Source: a virus
Virus record (IMG/VR): IMGVR_UViG_3300025362_000004
Span: 59,583 to 123,582 of that record
Reading direction: 5' to 3' (one strand)
Length of the DNA stretch: 64,000 nucleotides
Shown piece by piece: positions 5,580 to 27,531 of the stretch. The notes under the pieces are model-generated. The model worked only from the letters and a program-made list of their open reading frames with translations, was not told where the DNA came from and ran no database searches. Every line of letters starts with the position of its first letter. The first letter of the stretch is position 1. A program made the translations under genes and the position numbers.

Positions 5580-6269
5580 ATGCGAATTATATCAAACAAA
5601 AGAGACTATTACGATGGTTGGGCGACATATGATAAAACATATAAAACTAAAGTATGGGTTCGGAGACCACAAGAAATTGAATATAGCAAATATAAATTAG
5701 AAACTTTTACAGAAAATAGAGTTTGGATTAATAGTAGAGCTTTTCATATTGGTTATCTAATTATCGCTGGTATAGTTTATCCATATATCGAATACGAAAG
5801 TCTATGTGATGAAATTTGGTATAAAGGTAAGTGGATAAAAGAAAATAACAAAGAAGATAAATTCTTCTATGACTATGAAACTCTTATGAGTGAACATGGA
5901 GATTTCCTAAAAAAACATTGTTGGAATGATGCTAGAGATATTAAGAATTTCTTTGAACAAGACCAATTCGATATGACAGAAATGTGTTTAGAATTAGATG
6001 CACCAATCATTTTAATTGAATTTAAAAAGTTTCCTTGGAGACTTGCAGACACAACAAAAAGAGTTATTACAATAAATCCTAATCTAAAAGAAATTAGTTT
6101 AAGTAAGGTATTTAGTTCACCACAAATGTATCAAATATTAGACAGATTTGTTAGTAATGTTATGGTAGGAGATAAAACTCCAACATCAAAACAAACAGAT
6201 ATTGAAAAAGTTGAAGCACATGGCTTTGACAAGAAAATTTCCTTTAGAAAGGGGAAACAAAAAAAATGA
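5580..6269 (+). CDS. Conserved phage-type hypothetical protein, 229 aa
   Basis: ATG follows AGGAAGAGGAG. The N-terminus MRIISNKRDYYDGW resembles a phage-conserved family that begins with a similar 'II-S-x-x-x-DYYD' segment; the function of that family is not known to me. The protein has no membrane segment or catalytic motif I can identify. Its stop overlaps the next ATG by 4 nt, indicating coupling. Confidence 0.8.
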   Translation: MRIISNKRDYYDGWATYDKTYKTKVWVRRPQEIEYSKYKLETFTENRVWINSRAFHIGYLIIAGIVYPYIEYESLCDEIWYKGKWIKENNKEDKFFYDYETLMSEHGDFLKKHCWNDARDIKNFFEQDQFDMTEMCLELDAPIILIEFKKFPWRLADTTKRVITINPNLKEISLSKVFSSPQMYQILDRFVSNVMVGDKTPTSKQTDIEKVEAHGFDKKISFRKGKQKK

Positions 6270-6499
6270 AGTTAAGTGAAATTAAAAAAGGTATTCAAGA
6301 AAAGGTTAAAAATTGGGAAGACGAATTAATTGAAATAGTTAATTCTCATGCTAGAGAACTTGCTGAAGAAGGGTATAATTTTAGAGAAGACGATATTAGT
6401 GATGATTTCATGTGTGATATAGAGTGTCTAATCAATGAAAGAGTTGAAATTTATAATTTATGTTATAAGGAGAAAAATAATGAACTTAAAGAAAATTAA
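6266..6499 (+). CDS. Hypothetical acidic protein, 77 aa
   Basis: ATG overlaps the previous stop (ATGA arrangement). The product is acidic and helical in appearance, with no recognised motif. Its end overlaps the next gene's start by 20 nt, so genes 5580-6800 form one translationally coupled group lying between two tRNA clusters. Confidence 0.7.
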   Translation: MKLSEIKKGIQEKVKNWEDELIEIVNSHARELAEEGYNFREDDISDDFMCDIECLINERVEIYNLCYKEKNNELKEN

Positions 6500-6800
6500 A
6501 GAACTAGCAGATTACATGGAAGACAATCCCTATGAATTACCACAAGCACTGATGTATAATGAAATTACTTGTTATACAGATGAAGAAATTTCTGATGAAG
6601 TAATGGAATTACTATTAGATTTCGGTGAAGAAATATTATTTGATTTTGAATATTCAACAGCAATTGCAGTTGGTTGTGTAATAGGTTCATGGTATAATAC
6701 TTTTATGCAAGATAAAGTAGATATACTTAAAAGAGATAGAGATAAATTATACAAAGATTTAAGAGAGAATTATATTTTTAGTGATTGGGCTTTAGCCTAG
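6480..6800 (+). CDS. Hypothetical acidic protein, 106 aa
   Basis: ATG 6480 has AAGGAG seven nucleotides upstream. The product is acidic with one moderately hydrophobic stretch (STAIAVGCVIGSWYNTF, res ~59-75) that is short for a membrane span. No family recognised. The tRNA-Gly(GCC) gene begins 8 nt after its stop, so mRNA and tRNA appear to share one transcript. Confidence 0.7.
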   Translation: MNLKKIKELADYMEDNPYELPQALMYNEITCYTDEEISDEVMELLLDFGEEILFDFEYSTAIAVGCVIGSWYNTFMQDKVDILKRDRDKLYKDLRENYIFSDWALA

Positions 6801-6808
6801 TCATTAAT

Positions 6809-6882
6809 GTCTTGATAGTTTAAAGGTAGAACTTATCGTTGCCAACGATAGAGTGGGAGTTCAATTCTCCCTCTTGACACCA
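6809..6882 (+). tRNA. tRNA-Gly(GCC)
   Basis: Perfect anticodon stem TATCG/CGATA with loop TTGCCAA. The acceptor GTCTTGA/TCTTGAC has two adjacent T-T mismatches and A73, so function is less certain. Confidence 0.75.
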
Positions 6883-7227: not shown

Positions 7228-7256
7228 TTGACTTTTTTCGGATTTTGTGATATAAT
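7228..7256 (+). promoter_or_regulatory. Promoter of GIY-YIG gene 1
   Basis: TTGACT (7228-7233), 17-nt spacer, TGTGATATAAT ending 7256. Nearly identical to the promoter at 27390-27418. Confidence 0.85.
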
Positions 7257-7302
7257 AAATTATAAAGATAAAAAAGTAGAACTTTTTTTGAGAGGTGTTG
7301 TT

Positions 7303-8061
7303 ATGTCAATAGGTATTTATAAATACGAAAATAAAATCAATGGAAATATTTATATTGGTCAGTCAATTAATATAGAAGGAAGGCACAGTAAGCATTTATA
7401 TCGAGCTATTAGAGGCAAAGAAACAAACAGTGAATATAATACAAGTTTATCTAAAGCGATTAGAAAATATAATATAGAAAATTTTGATTTTTCAATAATT
7501 GATGAATGTAAAATTGAAGAATTAGATAAAAGAGAGATTTACTGGATTAAATATTATGATAGCTATAATAATGGTTATAATCAAACACTTGGTGGTCAAA
7601 GTGGTAATAATTATAAGTTTGACAAAGAAGTTATTATTAAAGTGAAAGAACTGTTAAAAAATACAACATTGTTATATGATACAATAAATGAATTAACTGG
7701 TGTTTCTAAAACTACTATATCAGAAATTAATACTGGAAAATATCATATTGATGAAGGTCAAGAATATCCTCTTAGGGTAACGACTAAAGAAGAAAATTAT
7801 TGCTCTAAATGCGGAAAACCAATAAGTAAAAGAAATGAAAATAATTTATGTAGGATTTGTTATAGTGAAACTACTAGAAGAGTAGAACGACCTACACCAA
7901 TAGACCTCGCTAAAATGGTTGTTGAAAAAGGTTTTAGTAGCGTTGGTAGGAATTATGGAGTGTCTCATACCAGTATAAAGAGATGGTGTAAAACATATAA
8001 AATTCCGTATATAAAGAAAGAATTAAAAGTATGGTATCAAAATCAAATAGGCTCTGAGTAG
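7303..8061 (+). CDS. GIY-YIG homing endonuclease with HTH and zinc finger, 252 aa
   Basis: The GIY-YIG nuclease is N-terminal: GIYKYENKINGNIYIGQS (res 3-20), R28 in EGRHSKH, and a conserved E (KREIYWIKYY, ~res 82-91) ending with the GYNQTLGG signature. After it come an HTH (TGVSKTTISEINTGKY), a Cys4 zinc finger (CSKCGKP...CRICYS) and a second HTH (VGRNYGVSHTSIKRW), the DNA-recognition parts. Such free-standing enzymes cut DNA near their insertion site and spread by homing. It has its own promoter and sits alone between tRNA genes, flanked by GC-rich hairpins. Confidence 0.93.
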   Translation: MSIGIYKYENKINGNIYIGQSINIEGRHSKHLYRAIRGKETNSEYNTSLSKAIRKYNIENFDFSIIDECKIEELDKREIYWIKYYDSYNNGYNQTLGGQSGNNYKFDKEVIIKVKELLKNTTLLYDTINELTGVSKTTISEINTGKYHIDEGQEYPLRVTTKEENYCSKCGKPISKRNENNLCRICYSETTRRVERPTPIDLAKMVVEKGFSSVGRNYGVSHTSIKRWCKTYKIPYIKKELKVWYQNQIGSE

Positions 8062-13836: not shown

Positions 13837-13858
13837 TTAAAAAGAATAACTTTAGTTA

Positions 13859-13880
13859 CGCCGCGTGCGGCGACTCAAGC
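13859..13880 (+). repeat. GC-rich hairpin repeat, copy 4
   Basis: CGCCGCGTGCGGCG followed by ACTCAAGC, 42 nt before the promoter of GIY-YIG gene 2; same arrangement as copies at 7173 and 53227. Confidence 0.8.
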
Positions 13881-13913
13881 ATAGAATAAATATACCAAAA
13901 TGGTTGCACAGAT

Positions 13914-13973: not shown

Positions 13974-14648
13974 ATGTTAGGTTTTATTTATATAATTAAA
14001 AATAATATAAACGATAAGGTTTATATCGGTAAGACTTATCTTGCTGTCGAAAAAAGATTTGAAGACCATAAAAAAGATTGTTTTAGAGAACGTAATTCTG
14101 AAAGACCAATTTACAAAGCAATGAAAAAGTATGGTTTAGAAAATTTTTCAATATCAAAAATCGGAGAATATGAAGAAGGACTACTAGAAGAAAAAGAAAT
14201 AGATTTCATAAAAAAATATAATTCTTATATTGGCTTCGACAATTCCCAAGGTTATAACGCAACACTAGGTGGAGACGGAAGAAGATATCTCAACTTATCT
14301 GAAGAAGAAGTTATAGCAAAATATAAAGAGTTAAAATTTGTTAATAAAACCGCAGATTATTTTAATTGTTCTTATGACTCAATAAGAATAATACTGGACA
14401 ACAATAATGTAGAAATTAAAAAATATACTGAAATTGGTTTAGGTGGTCAATTCAAGAAAGAAAAAGTTACAATGATGGACAATAAAGGAAAATTTCTTTA
14501 TTTTGATTCAGTAATTGATGCCGCAAAATATTTAGTAGATAATGAGATTGCTAAATGTAAAGTTAATTCTGCTAGAGTTAGCATAGGAAGAGCAATATCA
14601 GGTTTAAGAAAAACATATCTAGGTTTTCATTGGTCAAAAGGCCAATAA
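13974..14648 (+). CDS. GIY-YIG homing endonuclease with NUMOD-like C-terminus, 224 aa
   Basis: N-terminal GIY-YIG domain: GFIYIIKNNINDKVYIGKT (res 3-21), R29 in VEKRFEDH, E73 region (LLEEKEIDFIKKYNSY) and the terminal GYNATLGGDG. Then an HTH (NKTADYFNCSYDSIRIIL) and a NUMOD1-type repeat (YFDSVIDAAKYLVD ... RVSIGRAISGLRKT ... YLGFHWS), typical DNA-binding modules of homing endonucleases. Own promoter; surrounded by tRNAs. It is likely mobile and free-standing, not intron-borne. Confidence 0.93.
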   Translation: MLGFIYIIKNNINDKVYIGKTYLAVEKRFEDHKKDCFRERNSERPIYKAMKKYGLENFSISKIGEYEEGLLEEKEIDFIKKYNSYIGFDNSQGYNATLGGDGRRYLNLSEEEVIAKYKELKFVNKTADYFNCSYDSIRIILDNNNVEIKKYTEIGLGGQFKKEKVTMMDNKGKFLYFDSVIDAAKYLVDNEIAKCKVNSARVSIGRAISGLRKTYLGFHWSKGQ

Positions 14649-14651
14649 TAC

Positions 14652-14730
14652 AGTGGAGTAGAGCAGTGGTCAGCTCGTCAGGTTCATACCCTGGAGGTCG
14701 CGTTTGGTTCGAATCCCGCCTCCACAACCA
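14652..14730 (+). tRNA. Initiator tRNA-fMet(CAU)
   Basis: Position 1-72 is an A-A mismatch as in initiators, the D-arm GAGCAGTGGTCAGCTCG and 3' ACAACCA match bacterial fMet, and the anticodon stem TCAGG/CCTGG closes TTCATAC. The T-stem appears to carry a TTT insertion. Confidence 0.8.
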
Positions 14731-14744
14731 AAGAAAATAAAACA

Positions 14745-14797
14745 TTAGAGCCTATACTTACTTCAAATACATTCAGCGTAGATTAGTTAGGCCTCTA
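14745..14797 (+). ncRNA. Y-RNA-like small RNA, unit A
   Basis: TTAGAG-CCTA (14745-14754) pairs with TAGG-C-CTCTAA (14788-14797), a 10-bp stem with one bulged C. Conserved CTTACTTC follows the 5' strand (14757-14764). An inner TAC/GTA hairpin completes it. Lies 20 nt before the 14818 gene. Bacterial and vertebrate Y RNAs also have a terminal stem with a bulged C. Confidence 0.55.
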
Positions 14798-14817
14798 AAA
14801 AAAAGGAGATGTTTTAA

Positions 14818-16782
14818 ATGAAAGAAAAGATTTTAATAAGACGTAATTATTTTTTAGGTAATACAAGTTATGAAGATAGCAATTACCGTAGATATTACGC
14901 AGCACAATTACTAAACAAGTTTGGTATCCTAGTTGATAGACCAAGCATGGTAACACGTAGACACGTGGAATTGACTAGTGAATTGTTTGGAGTTAATATT
15001 CCAAAGAGTTTTTATAGTAATCCACAAGATATGAGATATTTCACTTGTAGTGAATTACTTGTTGAACAAGTAATTTCATATTTTAACATTGAGTTTGTTA
15101 CAGGCGTAAGTTCTGACGATGAAAGTTCTTTTGATAGAATAGAAATCTTTAGAAAAGCCCTACCAAATTATAGAGAAGGCGATGAAGTTGTTTTTAGAAA
15201 CTTTAGAATCCTTACTGATAATGAAGCAAGTCCAATATTAGAAGAAGTTTATAGTAACTTAGCAAGTTATACAAGAAAATGGAATGAAACTGAAAATGAA
15301 GAATTTGTTTGGTTATTCAATAACCATGTCGCGAATGACACAAGAATAAAAAGCAAGGACAATGCTATTGCAATGTTCAACGCTTATCCATGCCGTTTAT
15401 TTGGTCATTCATTAGACCAAAAAGATGTTGTAAAATTAAGCGTTGAAATGATTGGTAGAGAAGAAAAACACTTTTCTTATACTCCTGAACAAAAGCAAAA
15501 ACTTGGCTATGCTTTAGAATCTTGCTATAGTGTTCCATTGACAAATAAACAAGCAAAATACTTTAATACTATTTCTAGAAAATTAGGATATAAAAGCAAT
15601 GAAACAAACGACCGTAGTCCATATAAAATGGCAACAGAGTATATGAATAAGGGTAGAGTTGTTGATGCTGCAAGAATTTTTGCAAGAAATGGTTCTTTGC
15701 TTGAAAGAAACTTAATATGGTTACTTTCAAGAGCTGATATGCAAGAAGCACAAGAAATCATGAAGTTCGTTAAAATCAAGAATCCAATTGTTGGTATTCA
15801 ATTCTTCAATGGCTTAATTGCTCAAGGAGAAAACAATGGGAGTAGAACCTTCAAATTCTACAAAAATAGATTGATTAGACAACACATTGAAACAGACGTA
15901 GAAGCAAGATACAGAAAATCTGTTCTATCTTTAGGTATGAAAAAATACTTAAAGAAAGTAATGAATGAAAAAATTGATGAATATTACAAGAATTTACCAA
16001 GTCTTGGAAAAGTATATGTTGATGATGAATTTGAAAATATTGGTTTACCAATGAATACAAGTGCATCTGGAACAGGAATTGATGTATTACCAGTAGGTAG
16101 TAGATTAATGATTACTGAAGATTACATCAGAACATTCTGTTATTGGAACGGACCAAGAGATATTGATACAAGTGTAATTTTCATACATAGAGATGGTCAT
16201 CAAGCTACATTCTATTGGGGAAATTATTACGCAAAACCATTTGGACGTAGCGCACTATATTCTGGCGATGACAGAAGTAAAAACGGTGCAGAATATGGAG
16301 ACTTTAAAATTAGTGAACTTAAAGCATTAGGTTATACACACGCTATTTATACACTAAATGGTTATAGTGATAATCTTGACGTTGGGGAAATTTATTGTGG
16401 TTATCAAAATAAAAAAGACCTACACACACAAGCTTGGGATGCTAAGAATATTCAAATGAAAATTAAAGTTCATGGAGATAGTAGAAGTTATGCTGGATTC
16501 GCTATTGATTTTGAGACAAGAGAAATCATTGTTTTAAATCAAATGGTAGACAGTAAAAATCGTGTCGTTAATCCCGAAACATTAAAATCATTTGAACCAT
16601 ATTTAAAATCTAATTTCTTAGATACATTTAATGTTGCTAGAATCGCAAGATTAAGAGGAGAAGTTGTAACAGACCCATCTAAAGCAGATTATGTATTTAG
16701 TAGAGATTATTTTGAAAATATAAAAGGTCAAAAAGTTATCAGACCATCTGATATCGAAAAGATTGTTAAGTTATTAAATTAA
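14818..16782 (+). CDS. Large protein with C-terminal TerD-like domain, 654 aa
   Basis: Residues ~440-560 carry the TerD-like pattern: RTFCYWNGPRDIDTSVIF, then YSGDDRSKNGAEYGDF, then YTHAIYTLNGYSD, resembling the Ca-binding beta-sandwich of tellurite-resistance proteins. Upstream, LPSLGKVYVDDEF (~399-411) and LPVGSRLMI match the linker of large bacterial cytoplasmic proteins of this class, whose N-terminal ~400 residues are helical repeats (for example RVVDAARIFARNGSLLERNL). Function of the class is unknown. All Trp are TGG. Five Y-RNA-like units flank the gene, one upstream and four downstream, so I infer an RNA-binding partner role comparable to Ro60/Rsr. AAAAGGAG precedes ATG. Confidence 0.75.
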   Translation: MKEKILIRRNYFLGNTSYEDSNYRRYYAAQLLNKFGILVDRPSMVTRRHVELTSELFGVNIPKSFYSNPQDMRYFTCSELLVEQVISYFNIEFVTGVSSDDESSFDRIEIFRKALPNYREGDEVVFRNFRILTDNEASPILEEVYSNLASYTRKWNETENEEFVWLFNNHVANDTRIKSKDNAIAMFNAYPCRLFGHSLDQKDVVKLSVEMIGREEKHFSYTPEQKQKLGYALESCYSVPLTNKQAKYFNTISRKLGYKSNETNDRSPYKMATEYMNKGRVVDAARIFARNGSLLERNLIWLLSRADMQEAQEIMKFVKIKNPIVGIQFFNGLIAQGENNGSRTFKFYKNRLIRQHIETDVEARYRKSVLSLGMKKYLKKVMNEKIDEYYKNLPSLGKVYVDDEFENIGLPMNTSASGTGIDVLPVGSRLMITEDYIRTFCYWNGPRDIDTSVIFIHRDGHQATFYWGNYYAKPFGRSALYSGDDRSKNGAEYGDFKISELKALGYTHAIYTLNGYSDNLDVGEIYCGYQNKKDLHTQAWDAKNIQMKIKVHGDSRSYAGFAIDFETREIIVLNQMVDSKNRVVNPETLKSFEPYLKSNFLDTFNVARIARLRGEVVTDPSKADYVFSRDYFENIKGQKVIRPSDIEKIVKLLN

Positions 16783-16786
16783 AATT

Positions 16787-16862
16787 ATATAGAGCCGATG
16801 CTTACTTCAAATTTCACAGGCCTTTAAAGCCTGTACCATACAATTCTAGCTCGGCCTTATAG
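16787..16862 (+). ncRNA. Y-RNA-like small RNA, unit B
   Basis: Stem GCCGA/TCGGC with extra C on the 3' side, conserved CTTACTTC at 16801-16808, inner ACAGGC/GCCTGT hairpin with CTTTAAA loop. Begins 5 nt after the TerD-like gene. Confidence 0.55.
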
Positions 16863-16880
16863 TAAAAATAATAAAATAGA

Positions 16881-16978
16881 ACCAATGCTTACTTCAAATT
16901 TAATCTAATCCGCTGATGAGGTTCGAATCCTCCTAGTCGTCTAATGGTAAGACCGCGGACTCTAAAAGACAGCTTGGT
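16881..16978 (+). ncRNA. Y-RNA-like small RNA with permuted tRNA-like module, unit C
   Basis: Terminal stem ACCAA (16881-16885) / TTGGT (16974-16978), then CTTACTTC (16888-16895). Inside, TCCGC (16909-16913) pairs with GCGGA (16955-16959), acting as an anticodon-type stem that opens inward. Between the strands lie a T-arm (GAGG-TTCGAAT-CCTC, 16918-16932), CTAGTC, and a D-arm (GTCT...AGAC, 16939-16953). The T-arm comes before the D-arm, so this is a circularly permuted tRNA mimic with no free acceptor end. That is the layout described for bacterial YrlA RNAs. Confidence 0.65.
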
Positions 16979-16999
16979 CATAATTAAAAAATAAATAGA

Positions 17000-17085
17000 A
17001 CCGAAACTTACTTCAAATGGATATTACAGGTTCGATTCCTGTATTAGGTCCCGAAAGGGTTGCCTGATATATAAAATAGTTCGGT
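17000..17085 (+). ncRNA. Y-RNA-like small RNA with permuted tRNA-like module, unit D
   Basis: Terminal stem ACCGAA (17000-17005) / TTCGGT (17080-17085), CTTACTTC (17007-17014). Inside are a T-arm (TACAGG-TTCGATT-CCTGTA, 17025-17043) followed by an acceptor-like hairpin TTAGG...CCTGA capped by CCC-GAAA-GGG. The acceptor is sealed by a GNRA tetraloop, so it cannot be charged. Confidence 0.65.
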
Positions 17086-17105
17086 CAAAAATAAAAATAA
17101 ATAAA

Positions 17106-17159
17106 TTAGAGCCTAAGCTTACTTCTAAAACAATTCGATGTTAATTAGCTAGGCCATCT
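17106..17159 (+). ncRNA. Y-RNA-like small RNA, unit E
   Basis: Stem GCCTA (17111-17115) / TAGGC (17150-17154), CTTACTTC (17118-17125), small ACA/TGT inner hairpin. Aligns along its whole length with unit A. Confidence 0.55.
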
Positions 17160-17179
17160 TAAAAAGAAGACTTCAGTTA

Positions 17180-17200
17180 CGCCGCGTGCGGCGACCTAAG
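17180..17200 (+). repeat. GC-rich hairpin repeat, copy 5
   Basis: CGCCGCGTGCGGCG followed by ACCTAAGCC. A degenerate GTCGCGGCGACTTGGC lies 20 nt further on. No homing gene follows. Confidence 0.8.
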
Positions 17201-17255
17201 CCTTGAATAAAAAGTCGCGGCGACTTGGCTTTAATAAAAGCCTAAAACCGCATTT

Positions 17256-17331
17256 GGTCCTAAAGTGTTAATGGTGTGCATGGTAGCTTGTCAAGCTATA
17301 GGGGCGGGATCGAAACCCGCTAGGACCGCCA
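17256..17331 (+). tRNA. tRNA-Asp(GUC), copy 2
   Basis: Perfect acceptor GGTCCTA/TAGGACC, G73, CCA; loop TTGTCAA. T-loop is ATCGAAA instead of the TTC form. Confidence 0.85.
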
Positions 17332-18005: not shown

Positions 18006-18397
18006 GGGGCTGTTTATGGATTCGACAGGGTAAAAACGGATACGATTAGCATAGGTTCGATGGAACTAAAACACACGATAAAACAATCGGAAACTTATTT
18101 AACACAGTTATTTCTTGGGTAAAGGGTTTATTCTCTCCAAGAGTAGCACTTTCAGTCTAAGAAGAGACAGAACGAATTTATAACTATTACCTATAAGTTA
18201 TAATTTCGCCAGAATATAGGATACGACTACTGACTAATACAAAGTGGTAAGAGATAAATTGTATTGAACGATTCGTAATAAAGTTTGTATGTAGTAAAAA
18301 GCGAAAAGTTCTAAAACCCTCTAAAAACATACTAACTATGTAGAATATGGTATCACGAATATCGTGGACAGGGGTTCAAATCCCCTCAGCTCCACCA
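18006..18397 (+). ncRNA. ssrA: Transfer-messenger RNA (tmRNA)
   Basis: The 5' end GGGGCTGTTTATGGATTCGA and the 3' end GGGGTTCAAATCCCCTCAG plus CTCCACCA are the conserved tRNA-like ends of tmRNA. The acceptor GGGGCTG/CAGCTCC has the G3-U70 pair needed for alanylation. The tag frame probably resumes near GAT 18077 and ends at TAA 18158-18160; it begins DKTIGNLFN and ends RVALSV, a hydrophobic degradation-type tail. The tag is about 27 residues, longer than the usual 8-15 but like the long tags of some Mollicutes. The product frees stalled ribosomes together with SmpB, which I do not see in the window. Confidence 0.92.
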
Positions 18398-21733: not shown

Positions 21734-23132
21734 TATATTATAACTAAGTGAGATATATAATATTATTTAGTTATCGGTCTTTGAAAAACAAATGAGAAAT
21801 TATCACTCATTTCATATGAAATTAATGGTGGCCTCAAAGCTGTTCGCGGCTTAAAGGTGGGTATCAACACGAACTCCAAAGGTTCGTTCGTAGTCCAAAA
21901 GACAAGGGGATATCGCTGTTATCATTAGTTGTTGTAAATTAATACCATCGGTGGTCATTTAGTAAAGTGAGAGTAGCGTCTCAAACTATACTATGGGAAA
22001 ATGATTTTACTGCTGTTGACGGGGAGAAATGCCTCTATAACACGGGTGGTAGTTGAACGTAGAAACCAGTAGAATTTTTAAATAATTAAGCAAATGCTAA
22101 ATTTGTAGGTAATCAATCCTACCTATTACACGCCTTGTGCAATATAGAGACCTTGCTAGTCAATATATGTAATAGTCGCATAATGAATAAGTTGTATATG
22201 TATTGGACTTCCTAATCAGAAGACCCTAACGTAAGTTAGTACACTAAAACCCTAACTCTTGCTTGGAGTAAGTGGCGTATAAATGAGGTTGAAATACCTT
22301 TCGAGCCTGTTGAGGCAAATTTATACGGCGAAACATATATAATTTAATTAGTGCATCGAGAAGCGACTCAGTATCTGGGGCCCGCGACCCTCCCAGGGCG
22401 TGGATGAGACCCAAGCGTAGATATGAAAACCGTTGAAACGGGTAAAACCGTGTATAATGAGTCAAGCCAATTCGAGTAAAAGCATAAAAACGGAAAAAAA
22501 TACAGATACTTTCTTAAAGTGAAAGTTGACTTGTTTAAGACAGGTAAAATAGATTAAAGCCTACGTACTTGTGAGTAATCAATCTCACTATCCTTCGGGA
22601 TATGTAATGAACCAACACAGTTAATGAATAAACTTATTGGTAAGATAATAAATCCAATCCGTTAATTTTATATGAAATGAGTGAATAACACGAGGCAGTT
22701 TAGTGTCTCTAAAGGGAAAAGGTGGGTAACCATCTGGAAGGTATTTGACAAATATCGCTATGTAATATAGCCCGTCTAAACAAAAGTAGTCAAGTGAGAG
22801 TATTAAAAATGTAGCTCACTCTTCAAGATAGTAACGAATTGTTGGAGAATAGATACTGTTATTATGTTAAAAGGAGTCAACGGCAAGTGCTTAGATTCTG
22901 TGGTTATCTCGTGGTGGGATAATCGGCATATCCAAAAATAATAGAATTGAAAGAAAACTACAAGGGTAATAAGTATGAGGTTAGCAACTAAATGCAGTTA
23001 CCCATTAAGTAAAGTAAAAATGGAGCTTTATTTAAAGTGAAAGTACCGCGAGGAAATCACAACGGAGATATTGAATATTTTGTGTCCCAAAAGGAAACGA
23101 AGTTCAGGTTGAAGTATATCTTCTGTCAAAAC

Positions 23133-23233
23133 AAACAATACATATGGGGGTTCGAGTCCCTCCCTAGCCTCCAATAAAAATTATATGGCTGGGTAGCTTA
23201 ATGGGTAAAGCAGTTGTCTAAGAAACAATACAT
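23133..23233 (+). tRNA. Circularly permuted tRNA (3' half before 5' half)
   Basis: The 3' half comes first: AAACAATACAT, T-arm GGGGG-TTCGAGT-CCCTC, acceptor strand CCTAGCC, U73, CCA (ends 23173). After 13 nt the 5' half follows: acceptor strand GGCTGGG (23187-23193), D-arm TAGCTTAATGGGTAAAGCA, and anticodon arm GTTGT-CTAAGAA-ACAAT (23213-23229). The two acceptor strands pair at all seven positions with one G-U. AAACAATACAT occurs at both outer ends, marking the joint in the anticodon arm. Read on the 5' half the anticodon is AAG. Confidence 0.7.
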
Positions 23234-23588
23234 TTGTATAAGCGAAATCTTCAAAGATTTAAGATGAAAATGCCTTAATTCCACAGAGTAATACTTAATG
23301 TGGAGCAGTAAAACTCGCAAGGTAATACTGTTTGATAAGGAAATGCACGGCGTCTCTAGCGAGACTTAGTGAGTCGCAAGCTCACACGGTAATGGAATTG
23401 TCGATTAATCTTAAATGACAGGGTGCTAAGCATCATCCTTCCAGAGATGGTAAAACAAAGCAGGCATGCTTCTAAACAGACCCGAGTCTGTGGATAAGTT
23501 AATTAACACGTGCAGATAAGCATCGCGTGGTACGATTAACTAAAGTAGGAGTATTAAAGATATAATCTCAGTCTTTAAAAACTAAACT

Positions 23589-27418: not shown

Positions 27419-27531
27419 AAATTATAAAGATGTAAAGGTAAAGTTATTGGGAAATAACTACACAAAATTAAGAGCCTAGAACAGGTAGTCTGATTGCCAC
27501 TTTAAATCAAAAAACTTAAAGGTGGTTTAAA

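Follow-up and report, generated by a model that had tools for sequence, protein, structure and literature searches.

Whether the short repeated units that surround one gene of a tRNA-rich phage are functional RNAs, and whether they belong to a Ro60-type particle or to a particle of another kind, was the question raised by this locus. The analysed stretch of DNA (the window; 64,000 nucleotides) covers positions 59583-123582 of the 123,582-bp virus record IMGVR_UViG_3300025362_000004, and the phage DNA polymerase is 42-43% identical to those of SPbeta-group phages. The window contains 39 tRNA genes, a tmRNA and a GOLLD RNA (ARAGORN, Rfam), and the locus is placed between genes for tRNA-Met and tRNA-Asp (Table 1). 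The GOLLD RNA (RF02032, 150.4 bits; 23063-23574) adjoins the tRNA array, the tmRNA (18006-18397) has an unusual tag, SPEYRIRLLTNTKW, and a c-di-GMP-I riboswitch (49.1 bits) is located at 27427-27501. Two GIY-YIG-type (homing-endonuclease-like) ORFs lie amid the tRNA genes, at 7228-8061 and at 13977-14648, the latter supported by Pfam, and a GC-rich hairpin repeat (agttacgccgcgtgcggcgac..aag; about 13850-13895 and 17168-17210) is present on both sides of the endonuclease and unit region.

RNA units of the phage locus

Exactly five copies of the motif AGARCCNANNCTTACTTC are present in the window (at 14747, 16791, 16878, 16997 and 17108), against an expected mean of 0.21, and no shuffle reached this number. 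A fuller unit pattern gave five forward and no reverse matches in the whole record, and no unit motif was found in the record outside these five places. Pattern counts and own-strand pairing thus agree with the original prediction of one unit before and four units after the TerD-like gene. The terminal stem described in that prediction is real but longer than first written: a 5' strand of CCNA, a bulged nucleotide and RC pairs with a 3' strand of GY-UNGG. Pairing thereby includes the first C of CTTACTTC and leaves UUACUUC as the unpaired motif. The 3' hexamers that this stem predicts (Table 1) were found in their own units in 5/5 cases and in swapped units in 0/20, and the product of the Markov-1 probabilities of the five own hexamers is about 1.7e-10. 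Units A and B are closed by an additional terminal stem (e.g. UUAGAG/CUCUAA in A), and the 3' strand of the inner stem is preceded by UAG, which is replaced by CAG in unit C. Single-sequence folding gave z scores of -5.16 for unit B, -1.7 and -1.8 for A and D, and near 0 for C and E. Folding alone is therefore convincing only for unit B, and the case for the units rests on comparison between sequences.

Two of the units have tRNA-like parts. In the permuted order that had been proposed, unit C has an anticodon-type stem (UCCGC/GCGGA), a T-arm (GAGGUUCGAAUCCUC) and a D-arm (GUCUAAUGGUAAGAC), without an acceptor stem, and unit D combines a T-arm with an acceptor hairpin that is sealed by a GAAA loop, without a D-arm; the minimum free energy (MFE) folds agree with both descriptions. 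The Y-RNA-like design assigned to the units, a terminal stem plus a tRNA-like module attached through an anticodon-type stem, was thus recovered in sequence and MFE folds, and the idea of several tRNA mimics alongside one TerD-like protein is supported at the locus. ARAGORN and Rfam called no complete linear tRNA in the five units, and Rfam YrlA did not match any of them. Reading unit C as an amber suppressor was rejected because the anticodon loop is never closed, and reading the units as permuted functional tRNA genes was rejected because the acceptor is sealed or missing. When viral contigs were searched, a long DNA pattern of the units gave no match, and a short one matched 118 stretches, apparently by chance, none of them with a second unit nearby.

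Table 1 Features of the locus (positions in the window)
Feature	Position	Strand	Evidence
tRNA-Met gene, directly upstream of unit A, part of the 39-tRNA/tmRNA array	14652..14730	+	ARAGORN; Rfam tRNA 49.6 bits
Unit A: Y-like RNA, short loop, 5' of gene	14745..14798	+	motif; 3' strand GTTAGG at 14786; fold
654-aa protein: helical N-terminal region and C-terminal TerD-like domain, no RING finger	14818..16782	+	NCBIfam, alignments, AF2
Unit B: Y-like RNA, simple hairpin in loop	16788..16861	+	motif; 3' strand GCTCGG at 16849; z -5.16
Unit C: Y-like RNA, permuted tRNA-like insert	16877..16982	+	motif; 3' strand GCTTGG at 16972; MFE fold
Unit D: Y-like RNA, T-arm and GAAA-sealed acceptor hairpin	16996..17086	+	motif; 3' strand GTTCGG at 17079; MFE fold
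Unit E: Y-like RNA, short loop	17106..17162	+	motif; 3' strand GCTAGG at 17148; weak covariance model score, 10.9 bits, E=7.2
tRNA-Asp gene, directly downstream of unit E	17256..17331	+	ARAGORN

The 654-aa protein and its family

Pfam (nothing above cut-offs) and PHROGs gave no domain and no TROVE for the window protein, and PADLOC had nothing for it. A partial match was obtained with NCBIfam NF041916 (RING_SCO0854; MXAN_6230/SCO0854 family RING domain-containing protein) over residues 289-576 (E=1e-14, 53.7 bits, cut-off 600). Canonical members have a RING region, which the window protein lacks. Judged by sequence, it is a divergent relative of NF041916 and, being below 600 bits and without a RING, not a member by NCBI's rule. 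Two canonical members above the cut-off also carry the RNA described below (G544:C66, G598:C82), and no paper connecting the NF041916 family with RNA was found.

The TerD-like assignment made in the original prediction stands for the C-terminal domain, and the N-terminus is a helical region. Residues D448, D450, G483, D484 and E492 are conserved in alignments with relatives. The AF2 model of the window protein (pLDDT 76.6, pTM 0.65) returned nothing usable in Foldseek. The model of a relative, L129 (pLDDT 88.8, pTM 0.86), matched the TerD structures 3IBZ and 2KXT with its C-terminus (Foldseek, E about 3e-5), and full-length fold matches were found in phage LpeD, Campylobacter virus IBB35 and others. 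The fold and the conserved acidic residues are thus shared with TerD (PF02342), but here the domain is fused to a helical region of about 400 aa, and an adjacent Ter operon was not seen.

A direct search with the window protein found no viral relative and only weak plasmid and phage matches. Starting from the tblastn matches (plasmids and one phage record), full-length homologues were identified in Niallia, Vibrio, Variovorax, Streptomyces and the gut phage MT835874, all of which match NF041916. Further loci were collected by a genome scan (70) and a viral scan (24), and the homologue set comprises 99 loci, drawn from more than ten phyla as well as from numerous phages, with bacterial genomes in the majority. 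The system is therefore not phage-specific, contrary to the original proposal of a phage system. The window protein has at most 23% identity to any relative and a very long branch in the tree; its placement was regarded as a long-branch artefact and was not used.

The core RNA and its linkage to the gene

The flanks of the homologues show the same arrangement as the phage locus, with CTTCCTTCT. The RNAs beside them run in the order outer stem, GG-CUA/UUU-CC internal loop, inner stem and C-UUCCUUCU, and the core consensus consists of an outer stem GG/CC, an internal loop with CUA over UUU, an inner stem of 8-9 bp, C-UUCCUUCUA, a variable loop and UUAG. One to nine copies are present per locus, with loops unrelated to one another, upstream of the gene in some lineages and downstream in others. 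An alignment and a covariance model (R1), which the original prediction had suggested for the five units, were built from units beside the homologues, and the family was found in both bacteria and phages.

A stem partner score of at least 9 was reached by 71.5% of the real units and by 7.0% of those with swapped partners. For the covariation analysis, an alignment of 48 units was made from sequence only; 91.1% of its cells are paired, a percentage that is inflated for the inner stem since the units were picked for a clear stem. Double changes were counted in 297 cells versus 100.8 +/- 8.2 after shuffling, and the covariation score was 0.907 versus 0.212 for shuffled alignments (0.16-0.21, at most 0.212, for slid ones). 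The outer stem, which played no part in choosing the units, pairs in 82.3% of cells and shows both-side changes in 7/8 pairs. In 14 tRNA-like units, covariation extends to all five helices, namely the core and anticodon stems, the T-arm, the D-arm and the sealed acceptor (93.7% paired; score 0.836 versus 0.223). With more copies aligned, the stem covariation seen in the five units rose and was not lost.

Homologues without RNA units, which would speak against the pairing of gene and RNA, were sought and are rare. The motif TTCCTTC lies no more than 600 nt from the gene in 89 of the 99 loci (Markov control: mean 8.6, maximum 14), and CTTCCTTCT occurs within 250 nt 136 times on the strand of the gene and never on the other strand. 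Six of the remaining ten loci were added by R1 (variant AUCCUUCU and others), which brings the count to 95/99, and R1 also detects units at three loci outside its training set (L126-L128). Among the four loci left, one (L174) is cut by the contig start, one (L219) has a UUACUUC unit and one (L216) has a possible variant; at L194 (23% identity) no RNA unit is visible beside the gene.

The same linkage was observed in genome samples of three clades. RNA and gene occur in the same 18 of 200 Bacilli genomes, and nearly all RNA matches adjoin the gene (1/32 is 1.9 kb off). Among 198 Actinomycetes genomes the RNA was found in 11, in ten of them alongside the gene, including two canonical members above the NF041916 cut-off, while the eleventh RNA lies at a contig end. 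The gene is present in 18 of these genomes, eight of which gave no R1 match under strict filters; one of the eight (G025) gave an RNA match by a slower search (L193). In 229 genomes of the class that contains Variovorax, the RNA was found in one, which also has the gene. Comparative genomics thus shows that the core RNA and the protein are inherited together, side by side. No family in Rfam 15 corresponds to the core RNA, and no report of it was found in the open-access literature searched, a scope that leaves an earlier account in a subscription journal or in work on YrlA or RNA repair possible. The core RNA turns out to be an apparently undescribed, widespread family, some members of which are tRNA mimics, found with a TerD-type protein.

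The best R1 score among the window units was 10.9 bits (E=7.2, unit E), i.e. no model match, and their membership in the family therefore rests on motif, position, gene and a bridge formed by two phages, LpeD and Weasels2. The window units have a C-UUNCUUC motif after the inner stem and are placed beside the gene. Lactobacillus phage LpeD has two units with the GC-UUACUUC of the window beside its homologue, and Rhodococcus phage Weasels2 has four UUACUUC units beside its homologue, one with a permuted tRNA-like insert. The UUACUUC variant also adjoins homologues at L217 (three units) and L219. Three standard core RNAs were located in Xanthomonas phage XacN1 (L276:1936-2324), in an unannotated gap before ORF396; this phage also encodes several RNA ligases (PMC7824862).

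Relation to the Ro60 particle and possible function

The original prediction of a new Ro-like protein does not survive as a statement of kinship, and its remark that no TROVE protein is present at the locus was borne out. Pfam detected none, and hhalign of the family profile against TROVE gave a probability of 0.1%, compared with 98.3% for a TROVE-internal positive control. Ro60 was absent from the 50 best PDB fold matches of L129 (Foldseek), in whose model a TerD fold replaces the C-terminal vWA domain of Ro60.

The RNAs share the design of those of Ro60 particles. When units were circularly permuted, with the cut placed in the acceptor hairpin, ARAGORN called 15 tRNAs, compared with none directly and none in shuffles, and in the permuted design the RNA is open precisely at the anticodon loop. 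This permuted module with sealed acceptor is complete in relatives and partial in the window (units C and D), and most units are not tRNA-like. It has the same design as the tRNA-like module of YrlA as summarised in PMC8394870. Rfam YrlA (RF02553) gave sub-threshold matches of 32-47 bits to units of four relatives (L176, 47.1; L214, 42.3; L154; L155), in the first two over positions 1-114 of 114, but these lie under the gathering score of 69, and units without a tRNA part were unmatched, as were all window units. Similar to the Ro60/Rsr-Y RNA (YrlA) particle, including RYPER, the family combines a protein gene with adjacent small RNAs, a stem formed by the RNA ends, tRNA-like T, D and acceptor arms on an anticodon-type stem, and an RNA-repair neighbourhood with RtcR or ligases. 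It differs in its protein (helical region and TerD instead of TROVE and vWA), in its core (GGCUA-stem-CUUCCUUCU...UUAG-stem-UUUCC, compared with GGUCGGUUAUC at the TROVE-linked locus L223) and in its many copies, most of them without a tRNA part. A phage-borne protein adjoining abundant short RNAs proposed as Y RNAs has been described in Listeria phage CKA15 (PMC12282133); that protein resembles Rsr by HHpred, whereas the window protein does not.

The identical RNA design and the YrlA matches could mean that the locus encodes an ordinary Ro60/Rsr-YrlA particle whose TROVE protein has diverged, the more so as, in most of the system-bearing genomes that also have TROVE, YrlA-like RNAs with this tRNA-like module are present at the TROVE loci. 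This is quite improbable in view of the hhalign result, the TerD fold in place of vWA and the sub-threshold YrlA scores; furthermore, 21 of 30 genomes with the TerD-type system have no TROVE gene, and R1 did not match any of ten TROVE loci. In one Arachnia genome, tandem YrlA-like RNAs (two by Rfam, two by eye) lie upstream of TROVE (L223:800-1370), and the TerD-type system is found elsewhere in the same genome.

It is very likely that the TerD-type protein and these RNAs form a real RNP, and this RNP is probably akin in its working to the Ro60/Rsr-Y particle without being one. It is also fairly likely that it represents a second class of Y-RNA particle of independent evolutionary origin, with a TerD scaffold unrelated to Ro60, its own core, a YrlA-like permuted-tRNA module acquired by convergence or module exchange, and interchangeable retargeting RNAs. 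One protein, with a helical N-terminal region and a TerD-like domain, would be produced along with several small RNAs. In every RNA, a constant core of stem, internal loop or bulge, inner stem and C-UUCCUUCU (C-UUACUUC in the case of this phage) is joined to a distal module that varies and takes the form of an open loop, of a hairpin or of a tRNA that is circularly permuted and has its acceptor stem sealed. The protein would bind the core, and the distal module may recruit or exclude tRNA-handling partners such as a nuclease, ligase or modification enzyme, or may imitate a tRNA substrate. Under stress, such a particle would probably process cleaved tRNAs and further kinds of structured RNA and, in this phage with its 39 tRNA genes and tmRNA, would guard or recycle tRNAs during infection.

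A job in tRNA or RNA repair or decay is slightly favoured. RtcR, a sensor of cleaved tRNA (PMC7790460), is encoded divergently to the Variovorax homologue; the Aliikangiella gene has RNA ligases, RNase T and an AAA_33+HD protein as neighbours; an RNA ligase is near the gene in Zooshikella and Vibrio; and in phage L199 the gene for Thg1 (tRNA-His guanylyltransferase, a 3'-5' polymerase; 5973-6818) directly follows the TerD-type gene and many RNA units. These neighbours come from a handful of loci with no background count, and most Bacilli loci have none. The Variovorax RtcR gene is accompanied by a DUF6283 gene and two small genes (L127:1-2391), which may be a new RtcR regulon.

Other readings of the units were weighed against the repair or decay RNP. 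With 39 tRNA genes in the window and real T- and D-arm sequence in units C and D, the units might be functionless, decayed or fragmentary tRNA genes of the phage array. This is refuted by covariation and thus extremely improbable: units without a tRNA part also have the constant core and covarying stems, sealed acceptor hairpins covary as well, and the units are strictly linked to one gene in bacteria. Cis-regulatory elements of the protein gene (leader, attenuator or processing sites) would explain why the units directly adjoin the gene on its strand, and autoregulation by binding of the protein to its own transcript is conceivable, but this reading is quite unlikely given that the units change sides of the gene among lineages, number from one to nine with loops that are not related to one another, and include permuted tRNA modules that are complete. 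The main functional rival to repair or decay is that the RNAs are decoys, tRNA mimics that shield phage and host tRNAs from anticodon nucleases as a counter-defence, with the protein as carrier. The same role has been proposed for YrlA (PMC7790460), and the exact opening at the anticodon loop, the presence in many phages with tRNA genes and the RtcR and RNA-ligase neighbours, which fit tRNA cleavage, all point to it. However, the majority of units are not tRNA-like, many members reside on bacterial chromosomes and PADLOC has nothing for the protein, and a decoy role is considered unlikely, though less so than the other alternatives.

These results would provide a predicted, function-bearing RNA partner for a protein family that public databases list only as hypothetical 'RING/TerD' and that occurs in more than ten phyla and in cultured phages. 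They also add an RNA family that is large and so far lacks annotation. The tRNA-mimic module known from bacterial Y RNAs is combined with two different core stems and with two proteins that seem unrelated, and some genomes contain both combinations, so that the old question of Y RNA function becomes testable by comparing both systems. The versions carried by phages point to a part in the contest over tRNAs.
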